Assembly: GCF_000025705.1 (NCBI RefSeq)
Contig: NC_013959.1
Coordinates: 1,789,063-1,853,062 of the forward strand
Source: Sideroxydans lithotrophicus ES-1
GTDB lineage: Bacteria > Pseudomonadota > Gammaproteobacteria > Burkholderiales > Gallionellaceae
DNA: 64,000 nucleotides
Direction: 5' to 3'
Of this stretch, positions 44,506 to 61,922 are shown in pieces. Position 1 is the first letter of the stretch. The number at the start of each line of letters is the position of its first letter. A program made the translations under genes and the position numbers. The notes beneath the pieces were generated by a model, which was not told the origin of the DNA, searched no databases, and saw only the letters and a program-made list of their open reading frames with translations.

Positions 44506-45144
44506 CTATGGGGTGGAGACGAGTTTTCGATACTCAAGCAGCAGGTCGTCCGCCGAGGCGAAGCCGTCTATCCTGAGCCAGGCTTTTCCGGGCGCCGCCC
44601 GCAATAGCGTTACCGGCGTGTGATCCATCTTGTCGCCGTAATACACGCCGAAAGCGCGCTGCGCGGCAAGGCTGGCTTCGCTGGTGCCGGTATAGAACTG
44701 CCACTGCGATTTGGCATCGTACTTATGCGCATATTCGGCCAGTTGCCTGGGCGTATCCTGCTCCGGGTCGATCGAGATCGAGATCATGTGGACCTTGTTA
44801 CGCTCGCTTCCGAGCTTCGCCTGCAGCTCTTGAAAGGTGTGGCTGGTGAGAGGACAAGCCGACGTGCAGGTGGTGTAGATGAAATTCATGATGACCGGCC
44901 GGCCATCGTTCATTTCGTCGGGGAGCAACACGGTCCGGTTGTCGTCGCGCACAAGTTCGACGCGGGGCACGTTGTAATTCATCGTCTTGCGTACCACTTT
45001 TTGCACCGCGTGATGAACATCGGCCGAGCCGGACATGTCCATCATTTCCATATGCATCCCATCATGTGCATAGGCACTGGTTGCGGCAGCACCGGACAGA
45101 CCGATGGCAAGCGCGGCCGCCAGGATAGTCAGGTTTGATTGCAT
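44506..45144 (-). CDS. SCO1/SenC family copper chaperone
   Basis: A periplasmic thioredoxin-fold protein of 212 residues. Sco proteins deliver Cu(I) to cytochrome oxidase CuA or related copper enzymes, or act as thiol reductases. The copper ligands are present: C93-x3-C97 in YTTCTSACPLTS and H175 in KMDHTPVTLL. A signal peptide ends near SAYAHDG, followed by a Met/His-rich stretch (GMHMEMMDM) that could also bind copper. In this operon its likely client is the multicopper oxidase rather than a terminal oxidase; that is inference from context. Confidence 0.9.
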   Translation of the reverse strand: MQSNLTILAAALAIGLSGAAATSAYAHDGMHMEMMDMSGSADVHHAVQKVVRKTMNYNVPRVELVRDDNRTVLLPDEMNDGRPVIMNFIYTTCTSACPLTSHTFQELQAKLGSERNKVHMISISIDPEQDTPRQLAEYAHKYDAKSQWQFYTGTSEASLAAQRAFGVYYGDKMDHTPVTLLRAAPGKAWLRIDGFASADDLLLEYRKLVSTP

Positions 45145-45160
45145 GATGCCTCCTTCAATT

Positions 45161-46003
45161 TCAGTCGGGCCGGGTGAATTCCGCGTCAGCCAACTTGGGA
45201 TTGAGCACCACTTGCTGGATCGAAATGTCTTCCGAACCCTTTACGCCCTCGACACTGGTTTCCATGGTGAACGGAATCTTGAGCCCCTTCACGGATTTGT
45301 AATCGCGGAAATAGGTCGCCACCTGTTTAGGCTTGCCGTCCATGCGGCGCGTACCGTCGATCTTCACGTCGAGGAAACTCTTGGCATCCACCCAGACATG
45401 GCGCACGTCGCCGTTCTTGAGGGTGAGCTTGAGCTTGTATGCATCGTTACCGTCCACTTTTTCGATGCCTTCCGATTCCACCCGGGTACCCTTGGCGGCG
45501 TAATCGATCAGGAATCCGTCCAGATCCTGCTGCTGGCTCGCCATTTTCATTTCTTCCGGGGTAAAGGGTTCGACCTCATGGCGCCCGAGGAAGGGCCGCA
45601 ATTTCCAGCCGTTGGTCCCGTCGTAGGCCTGGATCGCGGTATCGCCGCGGAATTTCATTTCGAAGCGCATCTTGTTCGGACGTGCCAGGTTCATCACGAA
45701 CGGCAGCCGAACCATTTTTCCTTCCGGTTCGCTTTTGATTTTGCCGGGATCGAAGTGCGTTTTTGTCAGTGCGTACATGGGAACGGGCGGCTTCGTCCTC
45801 AGTCTTCCCGCGTCGATCTTGCCCGTCATGCGCATGGTATGAATCGCACGCCACGCCTTTAGTCCGCCGCGCGCGGCAACATTTCTGTCGACGATCTGCT
45901 GCGCGGTAAGCGCACTGCCGGCAGCCGCATGTTTCTTGTTTGCGGCATAGGATGGTGTCGCGGCAAGCAATAAGCAAAGCAGTGTAATGAGTCGAGTAGT
46001 CAT
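45161..46003 (-). CDS. Secreted LolA-fold-like protein
   Basis: A 280-residue exported protein with signal peptide LITLLCLLLAATPSYA. The start of the mature part, TAQQIVDRNVAARGGLKAWRAI, followed by repeated amphipathic beta strands (MRFEMKFRGDTAIQAYDG; GNDAYKLKLTLKNGDV; HVWVDAKSFLDVKIDG), is what I associate with outer-membrane lipoprotein-sorting-protein-like (LolA/LppX fold) proteins. They have a hydrophobic cavity and often carry lipids. No lipobox Cys. It lies 16 bases from Sco and 10 bases after the small secreted protein. Role in the operon unknown. Confidence 0.7.
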   Translation of the reverse strand: MTTRLITLLCLLLAATPSYAANKKHAAAGSALTAQQIVDRNVAARGGLKAWRAIHTMRMTGKIDAGRLRTKPPVPMYALTKTHFDPGKIKSEPEGKMVRLPFVMNLARPNKMRFEMKFRGDTAIQAYDGTNGWKLRPFLGRHEVEPFTPEEMKMASQQQDLDGFLIDYAAKGTRVESEGIEKVDGNDAYKLKLTLKNGDVRHVWVDAKSFLDVKIDGTRRMDGKPKQVATYFRDYKSVKGLKIPFTMETSVEGVKGSEDISIQQVVLNPKLADAEFTRPD

Positions 46004-46013
46004 CTTGTTTCTC

Positions 46014-46526
46014 CTAATCCACGATCAATCCATCAATATGAAAATTGCCTATCACAACGTCGACGCTGCTGCCCACTTTGACTATCCTTCCGGGATTCCC
46101 GAAGATCATGTAATAGATCCGCTCCGGATTGGCCGCGATGTCCTGGCGCAACGTTCCGATATTTTCCAGCGTCGGAACGGCCAGCCGGGTGCCGCTCGCA
46201 TTGTCGATCAGGTATGGCCGCAACGTTTTGTCGAACAGTGCGTTGGCCTTGGACTTATCCAGCACGCGGAAACGAAATTCCAGCATCTCGCCCGACGATA
46301 CCGGATGTACGCCGACCACATCGACACCCCAATTGCGCTTGTAGTACAGACTGGGCCGGGTCCCGGCAAATTTCGTCTTGTTGCTTGCCGTCGGCGAAGC
46401 AGAGGCTGTTTTTTGGGCGACGGTTGCAGGGTTGTCCGCGGTGGCGGCACAAGAGCCCGGCGCCAGAAAAAAACCGCCCGCGAGCAAGCTCGCGAGCAGT
46501 AACCCACTTTCTGTTTTTATTATCAC
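46014..46526 (-). CDS. Small secreted protein of unknown function
   Basis: A 170-residue protein with an N-terminal signal sequence (SGLLLASLLAGGFFLAPGSCA), possibly a lipoprotein since the end reads GSCA, though this is not a strict lipobox. The mature part is basic and includes RPSLYYKRNWGVDVVGVHPV, then a beta-rich region (MLEFRFRVLDKSKANALF) and RLAVPTLENIGTLRQD. I do not recognise a family. It lies 10 bases after the giant gene's stop, inside the operon. Confidence 0.7.
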   Translation of the reverse strand: MIIKTESGLLLASLLAGGFFLAPGSCAATADNPATVAQKTASASPTASNKTKFAGTRPSLYYKRNWGVDVVGVHPVSSGEMLEFRFRVLDKSKANALFDKTLRPYLIDNASGTRLAVPTLENIGTLRQDIAANPERIYYMIFGNPGRIVKVGSSVDVVIGNFHIDGLIVD

Positions 46527-46536
46527 GGCCCGTCTC

Positions 46537-49500
46537 CTAGTTTCCGCTCAGCGGAATGTTGAACGTGCCACCGGAAGTAATGACTCTCGCATTGCCCCGG
46601 CGGTTCGCTGTGCTCGTCGCCGGAATCTGCGTGAAGGTCACATTCAGGTCGCAGTTGTTGCCTGCGGCCACGATCGCCCCCGCGGTGCAGGTCGAGTTCG
46701 GCGCGATGTGGAAGTAGGCGGCACCGCTGGTGATCGACGCGCCGAGTATCGTCAGGTTGCCGTCGCCCGCCCCGTTGTTGATCTGCGCGGTCAGGGTCGT
46801 GTCAGCCGGAGGCGCAGTACCGAAAGCGAGCGGCGACTGCGACAGCGTCGGAACCGTTCCCACTCCGCTCAACGTCACCGTCTGCAAGGTCGACGGTATC
46901 GTCGCGGTCTGGAAGGTGATGCGCAGTGTGGGCGTGAAAGTCCCTGCCGCGACAGGCGTGAAGCTCACGTTGACCGTGCAGGTGCCGCCAACAGGTACCG
47001 GGGTTGCCAGGCAATCGTTGGTCTGGCTGAAACGGTTCGAGTTGGTACCGGCAAAGGCAATGCCCGTGACGGTCAGCGGCCCGTACCCGGTATTGGTAAC
47101 GACTACCGGCTGGCTCACGCTGGTGGTGTTGATCAGCTGGCTGGTGAAGGTCAGCGTGGTCGGTGCCACAGACTGCGCCGGATGTGCGCCTGTGCCGTAT
47201 AGCTGCACTGTCTGTGTCAGGTTGCCAGTCCTTACAGTCACCGTTGCCGACCGCGTCACATAGGCATTCGGCGTGAACTGGACGCCAAACGTGCAGCTTG
47301 CCGCGGCTGCCAGTGGTGCACCGCAGTTGTTATTGACGATGGCGAAGTTGCCGTTGCCGCCAGTGATGTTAAGAGCGACACCTCCCGCCAGCGCAGCATT
47401 GCCGTTATTGCTTACCGTGATCACTTGCGCCGGGTAGAAGGTCGCCGGGATGCCGACCTGCTGCTGGCCGAAGTCGATCATTGCGGGCAACACCGACAGG
47501 TGGCCGGCACTGCCTGCAGAGGCTACCTCGTCGGCACCGATGTCGAAGCCTGTGCCTTGCGGACGGACCTGCGCGTCGACGTCGTGGTTGGGTGCCAGCT
47601 CGCTGCCGCCGTTATTCACAGCCGGCGACGCGGTGGCGATATGGTAGTCGCCGAAAGCGGCATAGGCCGTGCCTGCTGTACTGGTCGGTTTGATCAGGTA
47701 CAGCGGGCCGTAACGCACGTTGACGTAATTGTTGCCTTCGTCCACTGTCGGCACGGCCTGCATGGCTTTCATGCTTGGCGGATTGATGACTGCCGGGAAC
47801 TCGGGCATTACGCGCGAACCGTTGCAATACAGGTCAAGCAACAGCGGGTCGGTCGTCCTGTTGTGCGTCGTCGCGTTGTTGCCGTAACCGCTAGTACTGG
47901 TCAGCACGGAATAGACCGGATTCAGGCGCAAGTTGGCATTCCTGTTAGGCGTGACGCTGGTATCGCCCAGCACGCCGAGATCCCAGTAGGCCGGGCTGCC
48001 GGTGCATTGGCCGGTAACCGTCTGGGCCGGCAGTTGAGTGCAACCCGTGCTGCCGTTGTTGGAAGAACACAGCGCGCCCTGACCGGCCACCACACCGTAG
48101 CGGAACGAGCGGTTGTGCCAGACGATGTTGTTTTCCAGCATGGGCCTGGCGATCTGGTTGGCCACACGCACCGGATTGGTGACACTCGTCGAGATCGCGT
48201 TCATCAACTGCGGACTGGTCGGTTCAGCTGAGATACCAGCCGGACCCGGCCGCCCGTTGCCTGTCGAGGTCGCGGTTTCTCCAGTACCCGAAAGCAGGAC
48301 TCCAGCCGTACCGGTGCTGTCGTTCGAGGCGATGGTGTTGTTGATGATGGCGCTTGTATCGAGCACATCGCTCATTGAAATGCCGCCACCGACCCAGCCT
48401 GCCACGTTGTTGTCGATGATGTTGTTGCTCACCGTCACCTTGTTCCACGGAGCGAAGTTGCCCGGGAAGGCCTGTGTATCGGCGCCGTTCACCTGTTGCA
48501 GGCGTATGCCGCCGCCCTGGCCCGATTCCGCGAAGTTACCGCGGATGATGTTCGAATCGATGGTCAGGTTACCCGTACCCAGAGTCGCCGTTTGCAGCGC
48601 AAGCGTTGGCTCGCCGCCGACGAAGATGCCGCCGCCGTGGGTCGAGGTTGTCTGCTGGAAGCTCTGATTGAACAGGATCTCGTTGAACGCAATGGTGCCG
48701 TTCTGGCTGAAGCCGAGATGGCCGATACCGCCGCCGTCCGATTGGCTGAAGTTGCCGCAGATCCAGTTGTGGTCGACGCTGTAACCGTCAGTACCGGTGC
48801 AGATCGACACGCCGCCACCTGCACCGCCCTGGCCGGTGGTGCCTTCAACCACGCCGTTCTTGGTGATGGAATTGTGGTGGATACGCACGCTCTGGTCGTA
48901 ACCGAAGCCGGCGATGGCACCGTTGACCAAGGTGGGGCTTCCGGTCAGCAAGCCTTCAGGATTTTCGGACTGCCCCACATAGCCTGGTATTTCGAGGTAG
49001 GGAACACCGATGCGGACACCGCCATTCAGCGCACCGGCATTGCCGTATACGCGGTTGTTGGCGATTTCCAGATTGTGTGCCCAGCCGTTGACATAGATAC
49101 CGCCGCCGGCATCGCCGCCGGTGATGCTGACACCATCGATGCGTGATGGTGCGCAGAGGAAGTTGCTGAGCCCGGGCTGCGGTACAGTGTTGGCACCATT
49201 CACAAGATCGAACGCAACAGTCGTTGAGCTGTACGCGCAATCCGCGGCACTGGCCGTCAAGGGAGTTACACCATCGGCCTTGTAGCCCTTGGCCAGCACG
49301 GTGATGCCGGCACCTTCCTCGGTGCCCAGCACTGAGGGTTCAAGCAATACCACGCCGCCGGTGACTTCCTGGCCGGGTAGCGGATCGACCTGAGTACCCG
49401 TCGTGGACTGGTTGCCGGTGTTGGTATCAATACCGAACATGGCATTGATCCTTGGCCGCCAGACTTCCAGTTTGCTGGTCGGGTATTTGGCTGCGTTGAT

Positions 49501-52500
49501 GATGACATCAGCCGCGCCCACGCCTTGCAGGCGGACCGGCTTCCACATGATGTCCAGCTCGTTGTATGTGCCCGCATCGACCAGGATCAGGTCTCCTGGC
49601 TTGGCAGTGTCGATGGCCGCCTGGATGGTCTGACCGCTGGCACCCTGCACACGCACTGGTGCACGGTCTTCAAGCGTGACGGTCACTGTGTCGACGCTGA
49701 CCTTGCCGTTGGCGGCGGTGATCACGAGCTCGCCGCTTGGTGTATTGGCAGGCACATTGACGGTGATGCTGGCGTCGGTCCAGCTGGACACCTGCATAGT
49801 CCGGCCGCCGATGGTGACCTGGCTACCCGCACCCTGGGTGCCGAAGCCGTAGTGACGCAACAGCGTGCGCTTGCTGGCCGGACCGCTGGTGGCGAAGGGA
49901 CCCGCATAGGCGGGGTTCTGCACCTGCTGGTCGCCCAGCGCGGTGATGGTCAACGTGCCGCCAGCAGTGGTCAGGTAAGGCCCGAAGCCGGCACTGCTAT
50001 CCACGCGCAGGATGGCCGGGGTTGCGTCCGGGTAGGCGCAATCGGTCGGGTTGTAACCCGCCGCAAAGGCAGCGATCGGCAACACCGGCGTATCCAGATA
50101 GGTCGACTGCCCGGGCATGAACGGATTGGTGTAGCAGAAGTTGCTGTAAGCCGGGTTGTATTGCGGGTCGGTGATCTTCGCGGCCAACGCAGCCGTGGCG
50201 ACCACGTTGCCGTTTACGTCGACATATTGTCCAAGCGCATTGGTGGCCGGAATCGGGCCCGGATCGTTCATGCAGTTGATGAGCATGTTGGGTCCATAGC
50301 CGGACGGAGTCGGCGGATTCACCAGCCAGCTCGACGGCAACATCATGTTGTATGCGCCCCACTGGTCGGAATAGGTACGGCTGATCTCGCGGCCATTGAA
50401 GTCCTTGGTCGACACCGGAACGAACGGCACGGAAGCCTTCTCGCCGAAATCGGGCGCCGCCGCGTTGTACTCCGACGAGGCATCGTCAAGGATGATGCCG
50501 GTGTTGTTGGCGGCGACAGGCACTTCGGTGAAGACGAAGAACGTGGCACTGGCTTGCGTCTGGTCAGTCAGGGTGACCAGCTTTCTGTCACACAGCGGTC
50601 GATCCATGCCGGCGAACGGCGCGACCTGTTGCGCGGCCGGGAACAGGCTCAGGTAATCGGGCACGCGGTGCATATTGCCCACGCATTCCGGGAAAGAGAT
50701 CATCGATGCCGTCACCCCCAGATCCGACGTCGGATTGCTCTGGAAGCCGGGATCGCCGGTGTTCGGGTCGAACGGGTTCCCGTCATTCAACGTGGCCTGG
50801 TCGGGCAGGATGAAGATGCTGGCCAAGGGGCCGAATTGCTGCGTTGTCTGCGCGTTGAAAGCGTCGCCGACGAGGATGTTCTTGTCTTCTTCCTTGACGA
50901 TTTCATAGCCCGGCGGTGTCACGGCCTCGACCACGTACTGGCCGGGCGGCAGGCTGACCAGCGTTTGGCCGAATGCAGCCTGCGCCGCAGTCAGCGGATG
51001 CGCCGCGACATAGGCCGCACTCGGGAAATTGTAGCGCCCGTCATATGGAGCCGGCTGTACCTGGTTCCAGTTGTGGAAACCGTCGTAGCAACGGAATTGA
51101 TCGTTGTTCAATGTGTAGTTGGTGAACGGATCGACCTGGGTCGTGTTGTATGGTGGCAATGCGCCTGCCGCCGGTCCCGGCAATTGCCCCGGGCACTGCA
51201 TGTTGACTTGTGCTCCCGCCGTCACGCCAGCGGCCGCGGGAACCCCCGTGACGGGATTCCGCAACACCCCGTCTGCGCCGAGAATATAGTTCGCGCCATC
51301 CGAACCCTTGACAGTGTTCGCCCAGTCGTCCCAGCTGGACGTCTGCGTGGTATCGACCAGTTTCAGCGTCTTGGTGCCGTCGGGCAAGGTTGTCTGCTGG
51401 TACAAGTTCACCGTGACGCGCGGCACCAGCGGTTCCCAGATGGTCTGGATGTTGTAACGCTGGTCGTCAAACGGGCGCGTACTGCTGTAAACCACGGTGC
51501 CCTGGATGCCACCGTTCTCGCCCGGCGCGTAGGGTACACGTCCCCAGTTGATCAGGTTACGCTGGCTGATGAAACCCTGATTACCGTATGAATATGAACC
51601 AGGCACCTGCACGACGTTTGAACTGCAGGGCGCTCCTCCCGGACAGGCTGCATAGGTCGAGCTCCATAGTCCGGCACCAGGGCCGGTCGCATCCACCGCA
51701 CCGCCGGCATCGACGAAGATATTGACGCCGGTCTGTTTGTAGCGCGTGGTGTCGGCTTCGCTCACATACCAGTTGAACAGCGGGAACAGTTCGGCCAGCA
51801 GACCGTTGCCGTTGCTGTCGGTCAGCGTCTGGTTGGAGATGGCACCGTTACGGAAACGGTTCGTCATCAGCGCATTGGGTATGCCGGGTTCACCGGGGTC
51901 ATAGACGCCGTTCTTGTTGAGGTCCATGAACAGGTTCTGGTCATGCTGCGTGAACCAGCTCAACACCGGGATGTTGCCGAGAGCGACATTGGCGGTGCCA
52001 ACGACGACTGCCTGGGTCTGGATGATCTGGTCCAGCCACTGGTCCCACACCGCCAGTTCATAAGTGCCCGGCGGGACGCCCGTCAGGGTGAAGTTGCCGT
52101 TCGCATCGCACTGGGCGGCAGCGATGGAAGGCCCGGTGCCGCTTTGCGAATTCAGTGCGACCTGGCAGGTCGTCGAGCTGAGCAGGTCATATGCGCCGGA
52201 ATCGTACAGCGTCACGTCAGACGGATGCGACATATGCTCATTGGTGACATGTCCGGTGACCGTCTGCGCGCCGGTCAACCCGTTGGCCGCCGCATAGGCT
52301 GCCACGTGCGCCGGATTGACGAAGCCGATCGTGGTATGGAATCCGGGCGGGCCGAATTCCTGGAAGTACACGGGCTCCTTGACGCCGGTAAAGGCATCCT
52401 GGGCGGGCGTTCCTTCCAGTGTCTCGGTTTGCCACCAGACCTCGCCGGCTCCCTCGCGCCCCGCGCCCGGATGGGCATACACGTCATAGCGTGCCGGTGT

Positions 52501-55158
52501 CAGGTTCTTGATCAAGGCGTGTCCAGCCAAGGCGTATTTGGCAGGATCGGCTTGGGCAGTGCCAGCATTGGGATCGTTCGGGCAGGTGTAGATGACACCT
52601 ACGACGTTGCCGGTAGCACTGGTGGCGGTGCCGTTGGTTTTGGTATTCCTGTCATCCGGGCAACCCGGCCTGCCGAGCAGCCAGTTGCTGAGCGGCATGT
52701 TGAAGGCATCGTAGGTTTGCTGGCCGGCGGGATCGCCAGTACGTCCGGCCGGGTCGAACAGGATGATGTTGAATCCGCCGAGCCCGTTTTCGTTGAGGTC
52801 GTTTTGCCCGTTGGTCGGCGCATTGTCCTCATAGATATAGACACTCAACTGTGCCGGTTCGAGCGGAGTGGCCTGCAATGCGATTGAAACCGGATTCCAG
52901 GCTTTGGCGGTGGTGGTACCAACTTGTACTTGCGGCTTGATTTCCGCGCCGCCCATCATGTGGCCGCTGCCGGCCGGGTCGCAAACTGTGGGATCGGTAC
53001 TGCCGCAGCCGCCCACCGGGTTCCCGGCATCGCCGGGCAGGATGGAAATGTAGTAGTTCTTGGTTGGATCCAGAACGGCATCGGCGATCTGCGTCGCAAC
53101 CTGTGCGGCAACCGCGGCGCCGCGCACCTGCTGTCCGCTACCGCAGCTCACGGCACCGACGCAACCGGTTGCGATCACCGGCATGTTGCTCCGGTGGAAA
53201 CTGGTGCCCAGCGTGCGCGTCCCCAGCACGGGTGTTCCGGTCGGGTCAACCTTGAATGTCTGGTCTTCCTGGATGGTCCAGCGATAATCCGTAATTGCCA
53301 TCCCGCTGGTCGCATCGACCACGGCCACATTGAGTCCGGTCGCCATGCCGGCGGGAACAAATGTGACGGTGGCAGTGGCGGGCGAGCTGGCGGTGCCCTG
53401 CGAATTGGTGGCCACATAGGTGAACTGGCAGGATGTCGTGCCGGTATTGGGAATTGCGGTAAATGATCCATCCGGGTTCACCGTTACCGAACTGCAAGTG
53501 CCCGCCGTGGCCAGCGATGCCGTCAGCGGGTACGAGCTTGGATCGCTGGCGTTGGTCAGCAAACCGGGACGCGATGCCGAGAACGTGCTGGCCAGGGTGC
53601 TGGTATAGGTTTGGGTGGCGGCTGTCGGTGCACCGCCGGTTCCGCTCGCGGCGACGTTCAATGTCACCGTTGCCGTTTGGCCGGTCGTATTGCTCGCCGT
53701 ATAAGTGAAGGAATCGGTTCCCCTGAATCCCGCCGTTGGAGTGTAGATGAAAGTCCCGTCTGCATTGAAGCTCAGCGTGCCGGTGGCAGGTTGTGTAAGC
53801 GTCGACAATGTGGCGACTGCAATGTCGTTGAGTTTTACGTTGCCGTTGATCGCGGTGCTCAGGGGCACCTGATAGGAATCGTTGACCACTGTTGGTGTGG
53901 CAACGGCGGAAAATACTCCCGCTGCATAGCCGGTCGCAGTCGTGGTGTCGACTGGCTGATTGACCAGCAGGAATCCCTGCTGGCCGCCATCCGGCCCGTT
54001 TGCCGTGGTCAGGCTGAGCTGGCGGTCGAAGACACCAAATGTCGAGGGATTGAACTGACCGGCGGTGACTGACGGATTGACGATCACATCGTACGTCTTG
54101 CCTGCCGTGAGCAGCACCTCATCCTGAATTTTCGGAATGCCGGGTGCGACATTGCCATCCTCGGCGACGAGCGACATCGGCAGGCCGACCACGGTTGGGA
54201 TGTGCGTGTGCGAGCCGGCGTTCAGAAAGCGCAGCAGCACATTGCCACTCGATTCGGAGGCGCCCACCGCGAACGCGGACTTCTGTGGCGCGGATTTGTC
54301 GTAGGCCTGGCCGTTGATCAGGAAATAGGTGGGTGTGTAATTCACTGCCGCCGGGTAACAGGTGTTTGCGGTGCTGGTGTTGCATGACGGGTCGTTCCAG
54401 CGCAGGTTCACATTGGTGCCGGCCATTGCCGCCGTGTCCACCTGGGCGTTCTGGATCGGGTCGATTTCGCTGAACAGCAGGGTTGCGTCGGAATCATAAG
54501 GGACACCGGCGCCGGCGTTGGCGGCAGGATAGGCATTGCCGCTGGCGAACGTCGTCACCGTGGTGCCATTTGGCACTGCAGGCGCCTGGGTCACGATCAG
54601 CACGCCGTAGAGTCCCATCGGTACCTCCAGCGATGGCAAGGTGGCGGCCTCATAAATGTAGCTGCCGGGACGCAGATTGTTCCAGGTCAATGTCGTGGGA
54701 GTCGTGCCGTTCGCGGCGACTTCGGTTGCCCATGACATCGCACGATCCAGTTGCGGTGGTGGTACGAATGCGGGGCTGGCCGCTGCGTTGTTCGGGAAGG
54801 TGCTGAAATTTTGCGCCGGATGTGCCGGGCTCGGCATCCGCGTCGGCATGCCCATGCCGCCGCCCAATTGCCCCAGGACCATGATGGAGGTCGGCACCGG
54901 CAGGCTGTTGGTCAGGTTGATTTGCAGCGTGTCGCCGGGTGCTGCGACGATGGTCGGCCCCGGAGCCCAGGCAGCGGTGCATGCGCCGGTGGTGCAGTAT
55001 CCCCACATCGGCACTATAGCCCCGTCCGGCAAAGTGGCATTCATGCGTTGCGCAGTCAGGTTGACGGGGATGGTCGCTGCGGCAGCGGCACCGGCGTCCA
55101 TGAGCATGACGACGGAAAGTATGGTCCACAGAGTCGCTTTGATATTAGGGGTTCTCAT
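46537..55158 (-). CDS. Giant secreted mosaic protein with degenerate cupredoxin start
   Basis: A 2,873-residue exported protein; ATG 55158 has AAGGAG upstream. After a signal peptide (about 1-28), residues about 28-410 are multicopper-oxidase-like (APGPTIVAAPGDTLQINLTNSLP; PMGLYGVLIVTQAP; YFLINGQAYDK) and parallel the neighbouring 520-residue oxidase, but the copper motifs are reduced to one HTH (317-319). Then come two bacterial Ig/cadherin-like domains (about 420-600), SdrD-B-like repeats with Ca-site character (DLNKNGVYDPGEPGIPNA), an IPT/TIG domain near 1775-1815, a right-handed beta-helix of the NosD/pectate-lyase type from about 1840 (TIQAAIDTAKPGDLILVDAG) to 2540, and three or four choice-of-anchor/HYDIN-type domains to the end (FGQQQVGIPATFYPAQVITV). 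No membrane or sorting tail is visible. Probably an extracellular matrix or scaffold protein of the oxidase system. Confidence 0.82.
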   Translation of the reverse strand: MRTPNIKATLWTILSVVMLMDAGAAAAATIPVNLTAQRMNATLPDGAIVPMWGYCTTGACTAAWAPGPTIVAAPGDTLQINLTNSLPVPTSIMVLGQLGGGMGMPTRMPSPAHPAQNFSTFPNNAAASPAFVPPPQLDRAMSWATEVAANGTTPTTLTWNNLRPGSYIYEAATLPSLEVPMGLYGVLIVTQAPAVPNGTTVTTFASGNAYPAANAGAGVPYDSDATLLFSEIDPIQNAQVDTAAMAGTNVNLRWNDPSCNTSTANTCYPAAVNYTPTYFLINGQAYDKSAPQKSAFAVGASESSGNVLLRFLNAGSHTHIPTVVGLPMSLVAEDGNVAPGIPKIQDEVLLTAGKTYDVIVNPSVTAGQFNPSTFGVFDRQLSLTTANGPDGGQQGFLLVNQPVDTTTATGYAAGVFSAVATPTVVNDSYQVPLSTAINGNVKLNDIAVATLSTLTQPATGTLSFNADGTFIYTPTAGFRGTDSFTYTASNTTGQTATVTLNVAASGTGGAPTAATQTYTSTLASTFSASRPGLLTNASDPSSYPLTASLATAGTCSSVTVNPDGSFTAIPNTGTTSCQFTYVATNSQGTASSPATATVTFVPAGMATGLNVAVVDATSGMAITDYRWTIQEDQTFKVDPTGTPVLGTRTLGTSFHRSNMPVIATGCVGAVSCGSGQQVRGAAVAAQVATQIADAVLDPTKNYYISILPGDAGNPVGGCGSTDPTVCDPAGSGHMMGGAEIKPQVQVGTTTAKAWNPVSIALQATPLEPAQLSVYIYEDNAPTNGQNDLNENGLGGFNIILFDPAGRTGDPAGQQTYDAFNMPLSNWLLGRPGCPDDRNTKTNGTATSATGNVVGVIYTCPNDPNAGTAQADPAKYALAGHALIKNLTPARYDVYAHPGAGREGAGEVWWQTETLEGTPAQDAFTGVKEPVYFQEFGPPGFHTTIGFVNPAHVAAYAAANGLTGAQTVTGHVTNEHMSHPSDVTLYDSGAYDLLSSTTCQVALNSQSGTGPSIAAAQCDANGNFTLTGVPPGTYELAVWDQWLDQIIQTQAVVVGTANVALGNIPVLSWFTQHDQNLFMDLNKNGVYDPGEPGIPNALMTNRFRNGAISNQTLTDSNGNGLLAELFPLFNWYVSEADTTRYKQTGVNIFVDAGGAVDATGPGAGLWSSTYAACPGGAPCSSNVVQVPGSYSYGNQGFISQRNLINWGRVPYAPGENGGIQGTVVYSSTRPFDDQRYNIQTIWEPLVPRVTVNLYQQTTLPDGTKTLKLVDTTQTSSWDDWANTVKGSDGANYILGADGVLRNPVTGVPAAAGVTAGAQVNMQCPGQLPGPAAGALPPYNTTQVDPFTNYTLNNDQFRCYDGFHNWNQVQPAPYDGRYNFPSAAYVAAHPLTAAQAAFGQTLVSLPPGQYVVEAVTPPGYEIVKEEDKNILVGDAFNAQTTQQFGPLASIFILPDQATLNDGNPFDPNTGDPGFQSNPTSDLGVTASMISFPECVGNMHRVPDYLSLFPAAQQVAPFAGMDRPLCDRKLVTLTDQTQASATFFVFTEVPVAANNTGIILDDASSEYNAAAPDFGEKASVPFVPVSTKDFNGREISRTYSDQWGAYNMMLPSSWLVNPPTPSGYGPNMLINCMNDPGPIPATNALGQYVDVNGNVVATAALAAKITDPQYNPAYSNFCYTNPFMPGQSTYLDTPVLPIAAFAAGYNPTDCAYPDATPAILRVDSSAGFGPYLTTAGGTLTITALGDQQVQNPAYAGPFATSGPASKRTLLRHYGFGTQGAGSQVTIGGRTMQVSSWTDASITVNVPANTPSGELVITAANGKVSVDTVTVTLEDRAPVRVQGASGQTIQAAIDTAKPGDLILVDAGTYNELDIMWKPVRLQGVGAADVIINAAKYPTSKLEVWRPRINAMFGIDTNTGNQSTTGTQVDPLPGQEVTGGVVLLEPSVLGTEEGAGITVLAKGYKADGVTPLTASAADCAYSSTTVAFDLVNGANTVPQPGLSNFLCAPSRIDGVSITGGDAGGGIYVNGWAHNLEIANNRVYGNAGALNGGVRIGVPYLEIPGYVGQSENPEGLLTGSPTLVNGAIAGFGYDQSVRIHHNSITKNGVVEGTTGQGGAGGGVSICTGTDGYSVDHNWICGNFSQSDGGGIGHLGFSQNGTIAFNEILFNQSFQQTTSTHGGGIFVGGEPTLALQTATLGTGNLTIDSNIIRGNFAESGQGGGIRLQQVNGADTQAFPGNFAPWNKVTVSNNIIDNNVAGWVGGGISMSDVLDTSAIINNTIASNDSTGTAGVLLSGTGETATSTGNGRPGPAGISAEPTSPQLMNAISTSVTNPVRVANQIARPMLENNIVWHNRSFRYGVVAGQGALCSSNNGSTGCTQLPAQTVTGQCTGSPAYWDLGVLGDTSVTPNRNANLRLNPVYSVLTSTSGYGNNATTHNRTTDPLLLDLYCNGSRVMPEFPAVINPPSMKAMQAVPTVDEGNNYVNVRYGPLYLIKPTSTAGTAYAAFGDYHIATASPAVNNGGSELAPNHDVDAQVRPQGTGFDIGADEVASAGSAGHLSVLPAMIDFGQQQVGIPATFYPAQVITVSNNGNAALAGGVALNITGGNGNFAIVNNNCGAPLAAAASCTFGVQFTPNAYVTRSATVTVRTGNLTQTVQLYGTGAHPAQSVAPTTLTFTSQLINTTSVSQPVVVTNTGYGPLTVTGIAFAGTNSNRFSQTNDCLATPVPVGGTCTVNVSFTPVAAGTFTPTLRITFQTATIPSTLQTVTLSGVGTVPTLSQSPLAFGTAPPADTTLTAQINNGAGDGNLTILGASITSGAAYFHIAPNSTCTAGAIVAAGNNCDLNVTFTQIPATSTANRRGNARVITSGGTFNIPLSGN

Positions 55159-55185: not shown

Positions 55186-56748
55186 TTATAGAGATTCGTC
55201 GATGTACCAGGTGAACGGGTCGACGATCAGCATCATCATCATTCCGCCCGGAAACACATCGTTCGTTGTTATCTCGCGCTCGTTGTGGGAGTGCCACATG
55301 TACGCATAGCCTGCTTCAGAGGTGGGGCCGTTGAAGTTCAGCGTCCCCGGTGGCAGCGGTGTCGAGTTGAAGCCTGAGTTGGAGGACTGTATGCCCAGAT
55401 AAGGCGTACCCGCGTACCACTGGCCGTTGGCGACGATCTGCGGATCAGGCGGCGTGATCGGGATAGGTTTGTTGTGGTCGGCGCACCATTCGCCATAGTT
55501 GGGGGCGAAATTCGTCGCCGTCGGATCGTTCGATACGCCGACCGTGTTGTAGCCGTAGGCATCCGGGTTACAAACGATGGGGTGCGACACCCCGCCTGCG
55601 TCGACCCATTGGTCTCCGCTATGATGGTTGTACACGTCCCAGTTCAATCCTTTGCCAGTCCAGGTGAAGATCGCATCGACGGTCTGCCCGGACACCGTGG
55701 GAATGGTGAACAACAACGGCCCGGCCAGTTTGGTCGCATCGCTCTGGCTCACTATCAGATTGCCGTCGCGTGCCAGCACGCGTGCATGGTTGCCGTGGAA
55801 GTGGAACGGATGCTGCCAGCGTCCCTGCCCGACCACGCGCATCAGCAGTCGCTCGCCGGGGTGGATGTGCGGGTTGCCGTTGTAGGGCTGGTGGATGTAC
55901 GACGCGGAATAGGAGGCGTCCATGTCGTCCGGCATCGAGCGGCCGTTGATCAGGAAATAATTGGGGCGGTAGGGTTCGGTGGTAACCATGATCTCGGGGC
56001 ATGATGTCGCGCCACCAGCCACGCTGGCAGCGCAGGAATTGACCTGATCCAGCGCCTGCTGGTGCATACGCGAATCGATCTCGCTGAATTCGAACAGATA
56101 CTCGCGGTCGTAACAGGTCGCCGCGTGATCGTATGCGGTCGCCGCGAGCGAAAAAGGTCCCTGGGTGCATCCTGTCGGCGCTGCCATGGTTGGCAATACG
56201 ACAATGGCTCCGTAAAGACCCATCTGGATCTGCAACTCGGGCTGGGTGCCGCTGTAATAGGAATAGGTGCCTGGATGGGTAGGCGTGAACGTGTAGCTTA
56301 CCGTGCTGCCCGGTGCAGCTTCCTGCACCATCGCGCCGCCCACGCCGCCGCTCGCCGTGACCTGGAAGCCGGGAAACACAATCGAGGTATTTCCTGCTGC
56401 CAAGGGCAAGGAATTGGTCAGATTGATCGTGACGGCCTGGCCTTCAGTCACGATCATGGTCGGCCCCGGCAATTGCATGAGCGGGCAATTGGGTGCCGGG
56501 CCTGCGACGCCGGTCGCGGGCCTGGCCGCGAAACCGCTGGGCGTGGTGGTACAGCCGTAGCCCCAGGAATAGATCATGGCTCCGTCCGGCTGGCTGATGT
56601 AATCGGCGCTTGCGGTGAGATTGAAAACCGGCCCCGTGATGCCGTTGACCTCAGCTTGCGCCGTTGCTGCAAACAGCAGGCAAGTCGCGGCCGCGGAGGC
56701 AAAGAACCAGGAGGCGAGCCGGCGGAAATTTCTTGTCATTGGATTCAT
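55186..56748 (-). CDS. Multicopper oxidase-like protein, T2/T3 half
   Basis: A 520-residue exported protein with Sec-type signal (WFFASAAATCLLFAATAQA). Cupredoxin domains are visible: LPGPTMIVTEGQAVTINLTN, IQMGLYGAIVVLP, YFLINGRSMPDDMDA. The copper motifs are HPFHFHGNH (H313, H316, H318, H321) and, near the C-terminus, YMWHSHNERE (H486, H488). HxHG plus WHSH is the pair that in laccases gives type 2 and type 3 copper ligands; there is no HCH motif, so no type 1 copper here. The ATG at 56748 has AGGAGAACGACC before it, ten bases after the preceding oxidase gene. It probably works with that protein (see findings). Paralog of the giant protein's N-terminus. Confidence 0.85.
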   Translation of the reverse strand: MNPMTRNFRRLASWFFASAAATCLLFAATAQAEVNGITGPVFNLTASADYISQPDGAMIYSWGYGCTTTPSGFAARPATGVAGPAPNCPLMQLPGPTMIVTEGQAVTINLTNSLPLAAGNTSIVFPGFQVTASGGVGGAMVQEAAPGSTVSYTFTPTHPGTYSYYSGTQPELQIQMGLYGAIVVLPTMAAPTGCTQGPFSLAATAYDHAATCYDREYLFEFSEIDSRMHQQALDQVNSCAASVAGGATSCPEIMVTTEPYRPNYFLINGRSMPDDMDASYSASYIHQPYNGNPHIHPGERLLMRVVGQGRWQHPFHFHGNHARVLARDGNLIVSQSDATKLAGPLLFTIPTVSGQTVDAIFTWTGKGLNWDVYNHHSGDQWVDAGGVSHPIVCNPDAYGYNTVGVSNDPTATNFAPNYGEWCADHNKPIPITPPDPQIVANGQWYAGTPYLGIQSSNSGFNSTPLPPGTLNFNGPTSEAGYAYMWHSHNEREITTNDVFPGGMMMMLIVDPFTWYIDESL

Positions 56749-56758
56749 GGTCGTTCTC

Positions 56759-58306
56759 CTAGTCGACACGAATCTCGGTCATCATCCCGCCGAAGTTTTC
56801 AGCATCGTTGGAAAGACGATTGAGATTGGTGGTGTAGAGGAAGTAGGTGCAGGGGGTTGTGGCGGTGCAGTTCGCATAATCGGGACTGCTTGCATCCAGG
56901 ATCGCATCCGTGGACTCGCCACCTCCCAGGGTGATCGAGTTGGTTGTGTAATACAGATTGTTGCCGGCCATGTCGCGCAACAGGCGCGCATTGTCTGCGA
57001 TCACCTGCATCGGGATGCCGACCGTGGCGAGCGTATGGAACTCGGTGACATTGAGGTCGGAAATGCGCAGTAGCGCGCGGGTCTGACCAGCGCTTCTCTT
57101 GATCTCAATCAGGGTAGGCAGAGGTTGCGACGGCCGTGAAATTCCGTCAGATGACAAAGTTGCCATCGGCCCGTTGATTACCGGTTTGCCATCCAGGCCA
57201 GTGCCTGTATTAGTAACGTTGGTGTTGATGGTGTCCGGATAGCTGCGGCCGCTCAGCATGAAGTACTTGTCGTGCATGTCGGCGAATGCTTCCGGATTAA
57301 ACGTCATGCCTACATAGTGGAAATTGGGGTCGAAGCTCATCATCTGGATCGGGTACTCGACGTCATAGCGGGTCGAGCCGTCGCCATCGTTGTAAGCGTA
57401 CGTGGCTGTGCCGTTGTTGGTGACGCCGGTTGCGCCGCCGCTGGCCAGATTGGCGGTGACGGGCAGCGGAGTTTGCCCGGTGCACAGGATGTCGCTACAG
57501 CCGACGCCGGTTGCTGCCGGATCGACTGCCGCTTTCTTGTTTGCCGCTTCCAGTGCCGCTCCGATGTCGCCATTGACCCGGTTCTGACGTGGGCGCACAT
57601 AGAGTTGCCCCACCATACCCATTTGCAGGTGTTCGGGCGGTGTAATGTGACAGTGCCAGAAATAGGTTCCGGCATCGGGCGCAGTGTAGTAATAGGTGAA
57701 GCTGCCCGCGATGTTAATGGCAACCGATGCGTCCGGCACGCCGTCAAAATATGAAGAAGCGTTGGGATAGCCGTGGAAGTGCACGGTGTGCTGCTCGAAC
57801 AGGTCCGGCCGCATGATCATGCCGACATTGCTCAAGGTCAGAAAGAATTCGTCATCCTCGTCGATTGCCATCGTCGGCGCCGGAGAGTTGGCGGACAGGA
57901 CGCCGTTGTTCATGATGGCTGCCGGTTCTATGCTGGCCGCATTGAGATCGTTCGGATCATTGGTGGGATTATTGAACACGTCAGCCGTCACGGTTCCAGG
58001 CAGCCCTTGATCAAGATTGCTCGTGCCTGAAAGCGGGCCAAACCCGAACAGGTATATCTGATGGCCGTCGCCCATGGTGGCAAAGCCGTCACCGCCGGCT
58101 ATTTCCTGGCATTTGACCACGCCCGGATGATTCGGATCGACGGTGGACCCGTTGGGGTGAAGCGTGGTCGTGCTCGGGCATTGCACGCGAAACGATGCGC
58201 TATAGGCCAGAGAGGAGAACAGTGAAATTACTGCCGCAAACCCAAGTACGAAAAACTCGAGCACATACTTCCGTACCGGATGGCTTGATGTTGTCGCATT
58301 TTTCAT
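56759..58306 (-). CDS. Multicopper oxidase-like protein, type 1 copper half
   Basis: A 515-residue exported protein, first gene of the operon. After the signal segment (LEFFVLGFAAVISLFSSLAYS) the first cupredoxin domain carries H173-T-V-H176-F-H178-G and, 40 residues on, H218-C219-H220 ... H226 ... M231 (YFWHCHITPPEHLQMGM). These are the motifs that provide the type 1 copper (Cys, His, Met) and half of the type 2/3 ligands. The second half (TYAYNDGDGSTRYDVEYPIQ; YFMLSGRSYPDTIN; ALLRISDLNVTEFHTLATVG) is cupredoxin-like without copper motifs. I chose ATG 58306 with GGGGG upstream; in-frame Met codons at 58318 and further upstream are possible. The substrate cannot be read from the sequence. Confidence 0.87.
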   Translation of the reverse strand: MKNATTSSHPVRKYVLEFFVLGFAAVISLFSSLAYSASFRVQCPSTTTLHPNGSTVDPNHPGVVKCQEIAGGDGFATMGDGHQIYLFGFGPLSGTSNLDQGLPGTVTADVFNNPTNDPNDLNAASIEPAAIMNNGVLSANSPAPTMAIDEDDEFFLTLSNVGMIMRPDLFEQHTVHFHGYPNASSYFDGVPDASVAINIAGSFTYYYTAPDAGTYFWHCHITPPEHLQMGMVGQLYVRPRQNRVNGDIGAALEAANKKAAVDPAATGVGCSDILCTGQTPLPVTANLASGGATGVTNNGTATYAYNDGDGSTRYDVEYPIQMMSFDPNFHYVGMTFNPEAFADMHDKYFMLSGRSYPDTINTNVTNTGTGLDGKPVINGPMATLSSDGISRPSQPLPTLIEIKRSAGQTRALLRISDLNVTEFHTLATVGIPMQVIADNARLLRDMAGNNLYYTTNSITLGGGESTDAILDASSPDYANCTATTPCTYFLYTTNLNRLSNDAENFGGMMTEIRVD

Positions 58307-58498: not shown

Positions 58499-58888
58499 TC
58501 ACATCGATGACGAAAAGCCCGCCATAACAGACTTGACCATTTGCAGAATCTCTTCTTCGCTCATTGAACCTTTGGGAATAAAGTGGCTTGCGCCTGCATC
58601 GAAAGCTGCTTGGCGATACTCGGGCAAGTCATAGGCCGTGATGACGATCACGGTGGTATCGGCATGGCTGACCTTGATGGCTTTGGTCAGGATGAGTCCG
58701 TTCGCGTCGGGCAAATTGACATCCATGAACACCAGATCGGGCACGCAATCCTGAATCTGTTCCAATGCAGCTTTACCTGCATCGGCTTCTGCAATGGACA
58801 ACGACGGAAAACCGGAACTCAGGATATGGTTGAGCGAGTGGCGAAAATCCGCATTGTCATCAACAATTAGCGCTGACGTTTTGTTCAT
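58499..58888 (-). CDS. Receiver-only response regulator
   Basis: A 129-residue CheY-like protein with one receiver domain and no output. The acidic pair is D10/D11, the phosphoacceptor D56 in LVFMDVNLPDAN, the Thr/Ser position VIVITAYD, and the Lys in HFIPKGSM. The sequence is of the NarL/LuxR receiver subtype. It points toward the oxidase operon and is 192 bases from it; it is divergent from the PAS kinase. It may take phosphate from that kinase and act by protein contact or as a phosphate sink. Confidence 0.88.
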   Translation of the reverse strand: MNKTSALIVDDNADFRHSLNHILSSGFPSLSIAEADAGKAALEQIQDCVPDLVFMDVNLPDANGLILTKAIKVSHADTTVIVITAYDLPEYRQAAFDAGASHFIPKGSMSEEEILQMVKSVMAGFSSSM

Positions 58889-59129
58889 AAGGGGCGCCCG
58901 TAGTTATCGTCCAATCGGTGAACGAACAGCATGCAATTTATATTCTTGGTACCCAAAGGACGATACAGTAAGCAGTGTATATTTCTGCTGCCGAGGCCGT
59001 ATCGCCAATACGCATATCCTTTGTCACAATAGGGCCGGACGCACCACAACAAGCTGGACAAGCTCATGGAACAGGTTTTCAATTGGCGGCGGGCACCACA
59101 AATGCATTGAAACATTTGAGGGGGAAGCT

Positions 59130-61214
59130 ATGTCACACGACACGTCACACAGCACGATCAATGTGGATGCACCACAGGATAACTTCCCTCCTCCCAATTG
59201 CCCTTTTGATGATTGCCGGGCAAACAGGCTTGGGCAGACGCAACAGGCAAGACTGGAATGGGAATTCACCGCCGATTCGATACCTCAGCTCATCTTCCTG
59301 CTGGATCGCGACGAACATATTCTGCGCACCAACCGTACTCTCGAACATTGGGGCCTGGGTCAGGTTGTCAACGCGCCGGGACGCAAGATTCATGATTTGC
59401 TGCACCCGGATTGCAAGGACACAGATTGTCACCTGAAGCACATCTGGAGATATTCAGCAGGCAATAGGGCGCAGAATTTTGCCGTTGAATACCAAACCGA
59501 GGACAAATTCCTGCATCGCCACCTGAATCTGCATTTCCGCTTCCATCATTTGCCACAGGACGCCGAAGCCGGATTGATCGTTGCAGTCATCAGTGACATC
59601 AGCGACGTCAAGCTGGCAGAAACAAAACTGAAGAATTCCAAAGACGAGCTCGAACGCCGCATCGAAGAAAACACCTTCGCTCTGATCAGCACCAACATCC
59701 GCCTGCAGCAGGAAATCGAAAATCACAAGCGCATCGAAGAGAAGCTGGAAAAAAACCGCGCGGAATACAGCCAGCTGGTTGAAGCCATGGAAGAAGGCCT
59801 GGTCATTCTTGACAAACAGGGGGCGATCACCTACGCGAATCGGCAGTTCTGTAACACGCTGGGATATTCTCTCGAAGAAATGATCGGTCACACTCTCATG
59901 AACTATGTCGCCGCAGAAAACCGCCCCGCGCTCGAACGGCATATGGCCGAACGGGCACAGGGAAGCGTCGCCACCTATGTTGCAAATCTTGCAGGGGTGG
60001 ACGGACAGAAATTCTGGGTGAAGATCTCGCCTACTCTGCTGAACGACCAGAAGGGAGAAACGACTGGCAGCTTTGCCATCATCGCCGATGAAGTCAATCA
60101 TCTGAATGTGCAACAGGTGCTGCGCGAAACGTCAATAGGAATCGAAGACCTCTATGACAATGCGCCCTGCGGTCATTACATGCTGGACAATAAGGATTTT
60201 TTTGTAACGATCAACACCACCAAAACCAAATGGCTGGGATACACCAAAGATGAAATGATCGGGAAGTTGAGATTCCAGGACTTGCTCACGGAGGCGAGTG
60301 CGCGACAATATGCAAGCTACTACCCACGGCTCAAGAACGTTGGCCACGTGCGCGACCTGGAACTCGAACTGGTGCGCAAGGACGGCAGCATTCTGCCCGT
60401 GCTGCTCAGTGCCACGGCCATTCGCAACGCAGACGGGCAATTCATGATGAGCCAGGCCATCGTTTGCGACATCAGCTATCGCAGCAATGCCGAACAATCC
60501 CTGCGCGAATCCGAACATGCAAAGCGGATGCTGACTGCACAGGTCCTGTCGGCACAGGAAAAAGAGCGCAAAAGAATAGCCAACGAACTTCACGACGGCA
60601 TCGGGCAGACGCTCAGTGCGATCAAGTTCTACGTTGAGAACGCCATAAGCAAACTGAACGAACGCACGATCGACGATAGCATACGGATATTTGGCAATGT
60701 CATCCCGAAACTGCAGGGTGCCATTGAAGAGATGAGGCGCATCTCGATGGATCTGAGGCCTTCGATGCTGGACGACATCGGCACGCTTGCCACGCTGTCC
60801 TGGTTCTGCAGACAGTTCCAGGGCGTATACGAATCTTTTCGAATCGAGCTTCTGCTCGACATCAAGGAAAGCGACATCCAGCTTCCGCTCAGGACCGCGA
60901 TCTTCAGGATCGTACAGGAAACCATGAATAACTGCGCCAAATACAGCCAGGCGAATTGCATCCACATCAGCTTGATCAAAACCTGCAAGGAAATCGAGCT
61001 CACTGTCGAAGACGATGGCCGGGGCTTCGATCATGCCGAGGTGTGCGCCAGGATCGCGAACGCCGGTGGCGGAATGGGACTGGTCAGCATGCGGGAGCGT
61101 GCAGAATTATCCGGCGGTACGTTCTCGGTCGAATCGGCCAAATGCAGAGGGACCAGCGTGCGAGTTACCTGGCCGTTCCAGGAATCGTCCCCCTCCCCGT
61201 CAACAACAGCTTGA
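59130..61214 (+). CDS. Three-PAS NarX-type histidine kinase
   Basis: A 694-residue sensor kinase without membrane segments. PAS 1 at about 35-155 (IPQLIFLLDRDEHILRTNRT; contains CKDTDC, C-x4-C), a coiled coil at about 160-215, PAS 2 at about 215-335 (LVEAMEEGLVILDKQGAITY), PAS 3 at about 340-455 (YDNAPCGHYMLDNKDFFVTI), HisKA_3 dimerisation domain with H488 (IANELHDGIGQTLSAIKF), and HATPase with VEDDGRGFDHAE and GGGMGLVSMRERAEL. The ATG at 59130 has GAGGGGG before it; the frame is open upstream but that overlaps the divergent promoter region. This kinase type pairs with LuxR-type regulators, as at 61263-61922. Confidence 0.92.
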   Translation: MSHDTSHSTINVDAPQDNFPPPNCPFDDCRANRLGQTQQARLEWEFTADSIPQLIFLLDRDEHILRTNRTLEHWGLGQVVNAPGRKIHDLLHPDCKDTDCHLKHIWRYSAGNRAQNFAVEYQTEDKFLHRHLNLHFRFHHLPQDAEAGLIVAVISDISDVKLAETKLKNSKDELERRIEENTFALISTNIRLQQEIENHKRIEEKLEKNRAEYSQLVEAMEEGLVILDKQGAITYANRQFCNTLGYSLEEMIGHTLMNYVAAENRPALERHMAERAQGSVATYVANLAGVDGQKFWVKISPTLLNDQKGETTGSFAIIADEVNHLNVQQVLRETSIGIEDLYDNAPCGHYMLDNKDFFVTINTTKTKWLGYTKDEMIGKLRFQDLLTEASARQYASYYPRLKNVGHVRDLELELVRKDGSILPVLLSATAIRNADGQFMMSQAIVCDISYRSNAEQSLRESEHAKRMLTAQVLSAQEKERKRIANELHDGIGQTLSAIKFYVENAISKLNERTIDDSIRIFGNVIPKLQGAIEEMRRISMDLRPSMLDDIGTLATLSWFCRQFQGVYESFRIELLLDIKESDIQLPLRTAIFRIVQETMNNCAKYSQANCIHISLIKTCKEIELTVEDDGRGFDHAEVCARIANAGGGMGLVSMRERAELSGGTFSVESAKCRGTSVRVTWPFQESSPSPSTTA

Positions 61215-61262
61215 GCGCCAGATAGATATCGCAAACGCTACTGCGGAATGAACCCCGGGCCG

Positions 61263-61922
61263 TCACGACATCGAAACCATCCCTTTTTCGATGGCATAAG
61301 ACGTCAGCACGGCGGCATTGTGCAGATTGAGCTTGCGCATCAGGTTGGAGCGGTGCTTTTCCACAGTCTTGACGCTCACGCACAGGTAGCTTGCGATATG
61401 CTTGTTGCCCTGTCCTTCGGCGATGAGCTTTAGCACTTCTCGCTCACGTAATGTAAGCGTATCCCAGGCTGATGCCGGATTGATGCCCTTGCCGCCGTCA
61501 AGGTAGCCGTTAACGACTTTCTCCGCGATATCGGGGCTAAGGTAGGTCTTGCCGTTGAGGACGCTTTTGATCGCCAGAATCAATTCGTCATGAGTGGCGT
61601 GCTTGAGCACGTAGCCGTCCGAGCCGGCGTGCAGGGCTTCACGGATATACTCCTCCGCCTTGTGTACCGTGAGAACCATTATCTTGATCGCGGGATAACG
61701 CTTTTTGATTTCCCTGATCGACTCGGTGCCGTTGGTGCCCGGCATGGAGAGATCCATCAGGATCAGGGTTGGAGAAAGACTGCCGGCCAGGCGGATCGCA
61801 TCCTTGCCGTTATCTGCTTCGCCGACGACCTCGATGTTCGGATCGGAAGACAGCAGCGAGCAAATTCCCTGCCGTAATAACGTGTGGTCTTCCACCAAAA
61901 GAATGCGCTGTTTCTGGTTCAT
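61263..61922 (-). CDS. LuxR/NarL-type response regulator
   Basis: A 219-residue DNA-binding regulator. Receiver at 5-122 with phosphoacceptor D57 (LILMDLSMPGTNG), and a LuxR-type helix-turn-helix at about 153-215 (LTLREREVLKLIAEGQGNKH then VSVKTVEKHRSNLMRKL). It is convergent with the NarX-type kinase, 48 bases apart, and is its probable partner. The oxidase operon is a reasonable target, given that it is the only large accessory unit nearby; not demonstrable from sequence. Confidence 0.93.
   Translation of the reverse strand: MNQKQRILLVEDHTLLRQGICSLLSSDPNIEVVGEADNGKDAIRLAGSLSPTLILMDLSMPGTNGTESIREIKKRYPAIKIMVLTVHKAEEYIREALHAGSDGYVLKHATHDELILAIKSVLNGKTYLSPDIAEKVVNGYLDGGKGINPASAWDTLTLREREVLKLIAEGQGNKHIASYLCVSVKTVEKHRSNLMRKLNLHNAAVLTSYAIEKGMVSMS

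Follow-up and report, generated by a model that had tools for sequence, protein, structure and literature searches.

To our knowledge, the oxygen-reducing site of known multicopper oxidases is built either by a single chain or where identical chains meet. Homotrimeric two-domain oxidases have the trinuclear copper site between cupredoxin domain 1 of one subunit and domain 2 of its neighbour, and the type C homotrimers have three trinuclear sites per trimer. A route from homotrimer through gene duplication has long been proposed for six-domain proteins of the ceruloplasmin kind. Here we describe a set of three tandem genes from Sideroxydans lithotrophicus ES-1, which we call A, B and C, in a 64,000-nucleotide stretch of the genome that is referred to below as the window (NC_013959.1, positions 1,789,063 to 1,853,062). 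In this set, one oxygen-reducing site would require two different, individually incomplete proteins.

The gene order and content of the gene cluster that contains A, B and C match the published Slit_1812-1818 cluster, which is described as three tandem multicopper oxidase/cupredoxin genes together with genes for SCO1 and a cytochrome (PMC5566968; PMC12016527). According to the account in PMC12016527, Slit_1817 and Slit_1818 have canonical oxidase motifs and Slit_1816 does not, and the rest of the cluster encodes SCO1/SenC, a predicted cytochrome and small hypothetical proteins. The cluster itself is already known; its descriptions in PMC5566968 and PMC12016527, as far as they cover the cluster, make no mention of half-sites or of the assembly of a shared site. 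A literature search for two-domain oxidases that form heterotrimers, and for multicopper oxidases that are split, heterodimeric or heterotrimeric, found nothing relevant among the papers listed, and was swamped by unrelated heterotrimers and other matches. The main features are listed here by position within the window, with locus tags for A, B and C assigned from gene order and size; all cluster genes are on the minus strand.

56759..58306, minus strand: subunit A (Slit_1818), 515 residues; two-domain multicopper oxidase unit, domain 1 with copper ligands and domain 2 without
57770..57790, minus strand: HTVHFHG of A, residues 173-179; H173 type 1, H176 and H178 trinuclear, all three in 86/86 homologs
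57614..57655, minus strand: HCHITPPEHLQMGM of A, residues 218-231; H218 and H220 trinuclear, C219, H226 and M231 type 1, each in 86/86
55186..56748, minus strand: subunit B (Slit_1817), 520 residues; two-domain unit, domain 2 with ligands and domain 1 without, no type 1 Cys
55792..55812, minus strand: HPFHFHG of B, residues 313-319; H316 and H318 trinuclear, H313 also invariant, each in 86/86
55285..55296, minus strand: WHSH of B, residues 485-488; H486 and H488 trinuclear, in 85/85 sequences with a letter there
46537..55158, minus strand: subunit C (Slit_1816), 2873 residues; two-domain oxidase unit that lacks ligands, then a long tail
53923..55077, minus strand: C residues 28-412, predicted two-domain oxidase fold without copper ligands; model confidence 88, best solved match 3g5w_A

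The copper ligands of A and B are complementary. Domain 1 of A, its first cupredoxin domain, contains a complete type 1 site and four trinuclear-type His residues, and domain 2 of B contains the other four. Together, the two proteins hold one type 1 site (two His, a Cys and an axial Met) and eight trinuclear-site His in four motifs, and neither A alone nor B alone has the ligand set of a multicopper oxidase. When conservation was counted over aligned homologs, 86 each for A and B, every ligand of A was kept in all 86, and those of B in 86 of 86 or 85 of 85, so the motif pattern is not a product of chance. The preliminary description, made from the sequence alone, had proposed a multicopper oxidase split over two adjacent genes. 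It placed these motifs at the same residues and noted that B has no type 1 Cys; its coordinates, strand, protein lengths and A-B junction were likewise right. It read a new signal peptide after the junction, and a hydrophobic N-terminal stretch typical of one is present in both chains. It had also named, as an outcome that would speak against a split enzyme, a structure model with a complete or clearly separate copper site in each chain, and neither chain carries the ligands for a complete trinuclear site.

A motif alignment with complete two-domain oxidases from related genomes makes the same point: relative to these enzymes, the domain-2 set is missing from A, the domain-1 set from B, and both sets from C. 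The first His of HPFHFHG, H313 of B, is invariant as it is in the complete enzymes, whose domain 2 likewise has no type 1 Cys. A type 1 site in domain 1 is found in A and in neither B nor C, and none of the three chains combines both trinuclear half-sites, the feature that marks a type C two-domain oxidase and allows its homotrimer to be active. In the genome, searched as one contig of 3,003,656 bases, A and B were the only matches to PF07731, and B and C the only matches reported to PF07732. No other oxidase able to supply a missing half was detected in these PF07731 and PF07732 searches, the sensitivity of which is imperfect, as one of them missed A itself. At the level of sequence, the complementarity of A and B is strong evidence for a putative shared trinuclear site.

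The two-gene picture given earlier holds as far as the complementary half-sites of A and B are concerned, but it overlooked the third gene, C, which has a ligand-free two-domain unit at its N-terminus. By Pfam, both A and B have Cu-oxidase_3 and Cu-oxidase_2 domains, and C has weaker oxidase matches within its first ~400 residues. For residues 28-412 of C, an AlphaFold2 model built from 62 alignment rows had a predicted local distance difference test score (pLDDT) of 88 and a predicted template modelling score (pTM) of 0.88. It matched 3g5w_A with Z 25.4 and a root-mean-square deviation (rmsd) of 3.4 over 279 residues, and 2zwn_B equally well. Because the model matches both of these solved oxidases, C is predicted to start with a complete two-domain oxidase fold that has no copper ligands. 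The rest of C, its tail, is composed of Ig/cadherin-like, SdrD_B-like and choice-of-anchor domains, with a weak NosD-like match.

A compact version of the cluster, with A of about 400, B of about 430 and C of about 640 residues, was seen in five loci (L048, 4366-13881; L049, 1406-14000; L166; L167; L168). In at least two of them, L048 and L049, a separate gene of ~1.7 thousand residues upstream of A resembles the tail of C in the window, and since the tail-like region is a gene of its own there, the tail appears to be a movable module.

For A and B, a single chain was modelled from a homologous locus (L058) with an in-frame stop between the two genes, which was read as Q (959 residues, 57 alignment rows; pLDDT 75, pTM 0.75). 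The B half of this model matched 3g5w_A (Z 26.8, rmsd 2.5 over 273 residues), and the A half matched the two-domain copper nitrite reductase 4kns_A (Z 25.2, rmsd 2.6 over 264). All three units, A, B and the N-terminus of C, therefore match two-domain oxidases or two-domain copper nitrite reductases with Z of about 25-27. In profile searches, the best solved relatives of both A and B were 3g5w and 2zwn, two-domain oxidases both. Copper nitrite reductases of the NirK type have a type 1 copper and a single type 2 copper, with no His-Cys-His type 3 ligands. An identity of A or B as NirK is excluded by the ligands, with HCH and HxHG in A and HxH and HSH in B making up the multicopper oxidase pattern, though the fold is common to both families.

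The closest described systems are the type C homotrimeric two-domain oxidases, such as the blue copper oxidase of Nitrosomonas europaea (3g5w) and a laccase from a metagenome (2zwn). Like A, B and C, they have two cupredoxin domains per chain; they share the same four motif positions and the type 1 site in domain 1, and are the best sequence match of A and B and the best fold match of B and C. They differ in that each of their identical chains carries both half-sites. In the present set, separate genes encode the two halves, no more than one site can form for each A:B:C unit, and the third chain is ligand-free with a long tail. As no chain holds both half-sites, we do not file A, B and C as type C two-domain oxidases.

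The arrangement is conserved. We scanned 84,980 species genomes with A, found over 400 relatives and fetched 80 loci, mainly from Burkholderiales (Burkholderia, Paraburkholderia, Cupriavidus and Collimonas) and Acidobacteriota, with some others. In every homologous locus long enough to show all three genes, A, B and C are separate and adjacent, in the same order and on the same strand. In a survey of 100 relatives, strong A matches and strong B matches coincided in the same eight genomes, that of S. lithotrophicus included. The adjacency of A and B throughout answers a second doubt raised at the outset, namely that homologs of the two genes might never be neighbours. The comparison of fused and split versions that had been suggested came out the same way, with A, B and C as separate genes in every locus examined. 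No A-B fusion was found in the loci or in searches of the order (300 genomes) and the phylum (398 genomes) with the A profile at E-values of 1e-8 and 1e-15, for which MnxG/MofA-type proteins may be too distant. In one Myxococcales contig from a metagenome-assembled genome (L057, 457-3846), a 1129-residue open frame that ends in B overlaps A in another frame. A fusion was considered there and rejected by frame arithmetic, which makes it a long overlapping open frame. A frameshift or pseudogene split of one gene is ruled out for A and B: in 86 homologs there are again two genes, each with its own N-terminal signal, and simply cutting a standard oxidase in two would not leave the half-sites in the domains that hold them here.

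In a tree of 51 proteins, A, B, C, both members of a family of ~330-residue gene pairs (see below) and the complete two-domain oxidases each formed one branch. In this tree, B is sister to C (97/96). A groups with the complete oxidases, with support of 93/87 at the fork of A, the complete oxidases and the A-like pair member, though the joining branches are long and were flagged as possibly false. The simplest history, as far as the sequences indicate, would be duplication of a two-domain oxidase gene followed by complementary ligand loss.

The ~330-residue proteins form a second family, encoded by adjacent gene pairs that divide the ligands in the same complementary way, with the gene order reversed. 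Such pairs were seen in L050 (3662-5585), L051 (4806-6846), L052 (5227-7287), L147 (197-2304), L171 (5711-7668), L172 (4486-6485), L173 (6783-8894) and L175 (6340-8454). The first gene carries only the domain-2 ligands (HSxHxHxNH and MHxH in most), and the second only the domain-1 ligands, with the type 1 copper site (for example HTIHHHG and YHCHVNTPLHAEMGM). Several pairs adjoin genes resembling a metal-efflux RND pump and its membrane-fusion partner, and no third oxidase-like gene was seen near them.

The three two-domain units, with their complementary loss of ligands, the conservation of that loss and the fixed gene order, lead us to propose that A, B and C make up one multicopper oxidase that is an obligate heteromer, likely an A:B:C ring whose six cupredoxin domains share a single trinuclear site, placed between domain 1 of A and domain 2 of B. 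We put the probability of this proposal at about 0.68. The heteromeric oxidase suggested in the preliminary description is upheld to the extent that a shared site is backed by complementary loss, ligand invariance, adjacency and the lack of any other oxidase detected in the genome; its count of two genes has to be raised to three. We infer the physical assembly, the stoichiometry, the copper occupancy, the direction of electron flow and the substrate; C is probably a member of the trimer.

The mechanism that we envisage is as follows. A, B and the N-terminus of C would each resemble one subunit of a homotrimeric two-domain oxidase and, after duplication, A would have retained the domain-1 ligands, B the domain-2 ligands, and C none. 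A would then hold the only type 1 copper, and the only trinuclear site would form where A domain 1 meets B domain 2. Rings of A3 or B3 would build no site, because A supplies only domain-1 ligands and B only domain-2 ligands. Electrons would pass from an extracellular donor to the type 1 copper and across the His-Cys-His bridge to the trinuclear site, where O2, the expected electron acceptor, would be reduced to water. Part of the electrons may go instead to a MofC-like cytochrome encoded in the cluster, which might either take or give electrons. C would close the ring, with its adhesin-like long tail holding the enzyme on a surface or mineral, and SCO1 would load the copper. Expression of the cluster is reported to be higher in late magnetite cultures than with Fe(II)-citrate (PMC12016527). 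This published magnetite induction is the sole reason to suggest that the substrate is possibly a reduced metal such as Fe(II) or Mn(II).

Ceruloplasmin offers a partial parallel. It is a six-domain ring with one trinuclear site between non-equivalent domains, as is proposed for A:B:C, and large parts of the fused A-B model align with it by Foldseek, if loosely (template modelling score, TM, about 0.35). Unlike A, B and C, it is a single chain with three type 1 sites, and its trinuclear site is between domains 1 and 6.

Several observations weigh against the A:B:C ring. The copper-site loops of the fused A-B model were low in confidence. Although six-domain proteins (coagulation factor V, Mnx 9bxa and ceruloplasmin) took the top Foldseek ranks for this chain, the matches were loose, with TM of about 0.35 and rmsd of about 10-17, and none was a rigid match. 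The closely parallel distances of A, B and C across 78 loci (Mantel r of 0.93 for A-B, 0.92 for A-C and 0.95 for B-C, with 0/999 permutations as high) count in favour of the set, but they are what joint inheritance predicts and are no proof of contact. The proteomics percentile ranks given in PMC12016527 differ among A, B and C, and these abundances are not evidence for a 1:1:1 complex. Finally, the principal function of C could equally reside in its long tail.

In the alternative that survives best, A and B share a trinuclear site without C, in some other stoichiometry (such as A2B, AB2 or alternating A/B), while C would be a surface protein apart from the enzyme, with an inherited, dead oxidase domain. 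It would account for the lack of copper ligands in C, and the ~330-residue pairs, which have the same split in two genes only, indicate that a third chain is not always present. Set against this, the two-domain oxidase fold of C is well kept, C comes after A and B wherever a locus reaches far enough to include it, and B groups as sister to C, as if C were a subunit copy of B. We consider a ring without C unlikely, at something like one chance in five.

Much less credible is an origin of A, B and C by fission of a single-chain, six-domain manganese oxidase of the MnxG/MofA type. The preliminary description had linked the order of the motifs (L3 and L4 before L1 and L2, in gene order) to these enzymes. 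That order is loosely common to both, and the window also has SCO1 and a MofC-like cytochrome nearby, as do the mof/ompB clusters (PMC5566968; PMC8218464). If assembled, A, B and C would further resemble MnxG, MofA and OmpB in having six cupredoxin domains, one type 1 site and one trinuclear site, and in being extracellular. The positions of the sites differ, however: all bacterial six-domain oxidases analysed have their type 1 copper in domain 2 and hold the trinuclear site between that domain and domain 3 (PMC3600357). Joined end to end in their present order, the genes described here would instead place the ligands in domains 1 and 4. The link is thus reduced to an analogy. MnxG, MofA and OmpB are single chains, against three separate genes in every locus examined here and no fused form in any locus that carries A; MnxG systems have accessory genes of the MnxE/MnxF type, none of which was recognised in the A/B/C cluster. 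The neighbours of A, B and C in both sequence and fold are two-domain oxidases, and Mnx 9bxa ranks no better than ceruloplasmin in the Foldseek list for the A-B chain. A family-wide PF07732 search of 120 genomes found no long MnxG/MofA-like frame, and a plasmid search for MnxG/MofA sequences returned only ordinary oxidases and close A and B homologs in Paraburkholderia and Cupriavidus. According to PMC5566968, the A/B/C set and the six-domain oxidases are not homologous at the level of an ordinary search.

That A is an independent type 1 copper electron carrier and B a copper-binding or structural protein, with no trinuclear site, is very improbable: the complete type 1 site in A alone would allow it, but four trinuclear-type His in each protein (including the pair flanking the Cys of HCH in A, and WHSH in B) would be unneeded, although they are invariant in 86 homologs at the positions of complete oxidases.

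If the A:B:C enzyme is as proposed, its history, from a symmetric homotrimer to duplicates with complementary ligand loss, would be a multi-gene counterpart of the ceruloplasmin route. Because A and B are each incomplete, the single genes can be annotated as ordinary oxidases and yet would be expected to fail singly. More tentatively, and at slightly less than even odds in our estimate, the set may represent a widespread class of obligate-heterotrimer oxidases, in which a symmetric ring with three sites became three genes with one trinuclear site on two subunits and a dead third subunit that binds minerals or surfaces, a multi-gene counterpart of ceruloplasmin and MnxG for the extracellular oxidation of solid-phase metals. 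Given the magnetite induction reported in PMC12016527 and the many carriers among soil Burkholderiales and Acidobacteriota, studying A and B together, probably with C, would be practical for tests of iron and manganese oxidation.

The remaining genes of the cluster follow C in the direction of transcription, in the order listed here, with the locus tags Slit_1815 and Slit_1814 given by cluster position.

46014..46526, minus strand: 170-residue secreted-type protein (Slit_1815), directly after C and conserved there
45161..46003, minus strand: LolA-like protein of 280 residues (Slit_1814)
44506..45144, minus strand: SCO1/SenC protein, probable copper chaperone (Slit_1813); PF02630, 6.8e-22; PMC12016527
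42878..44485, minus strand: MofC-like protein of 535 residues (Slit_1812), with one CxxCH haem motif and a periplasmic-binding-type domain; PMC5566968

Transcription runs from A through B and C to the 170-residue protein, the LolA-like protein, SCO1/SenC and the 535-residue MofC-like protein. Between A and B lie a stop codon, ten bases and the next start; B and C are 27 bases apart, and all gaps in the cluster are 10-27 bases. Purine-rich stretches resembling Shine-Dalgarno sequences precede most starts, and most of the proteins, A, B and C among them, have the hydrophobic N-terminal stretch typical of a signal peptide. The SCO1, LolA-like, 170-residue and cytochrome genes recur in homologous clusters. 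The 170-residue protein had no Pfam or NCBIfam match; its gene lies directly after C in many clusters, compact ones included.

Just upstream of the cluster, at 58499-61922, are genes for a receiver-only response regulator, a PAS-rich HisKA_3 histidine kinase (on the opposite strand) and a LuxR-type response regulator, which may control the oxidase cluster. A single close homolog of the receiver protein was seen beside related clusters. In Cupriavidus metallidurans CH34 (L134, 13903-30214) and in a Paraburkholderia (L135, 14290-29555), the cluster is on a large secondary replicon, and in the annotated Paraburkholderia record A, B and C are all labelled hypothetical proteins.

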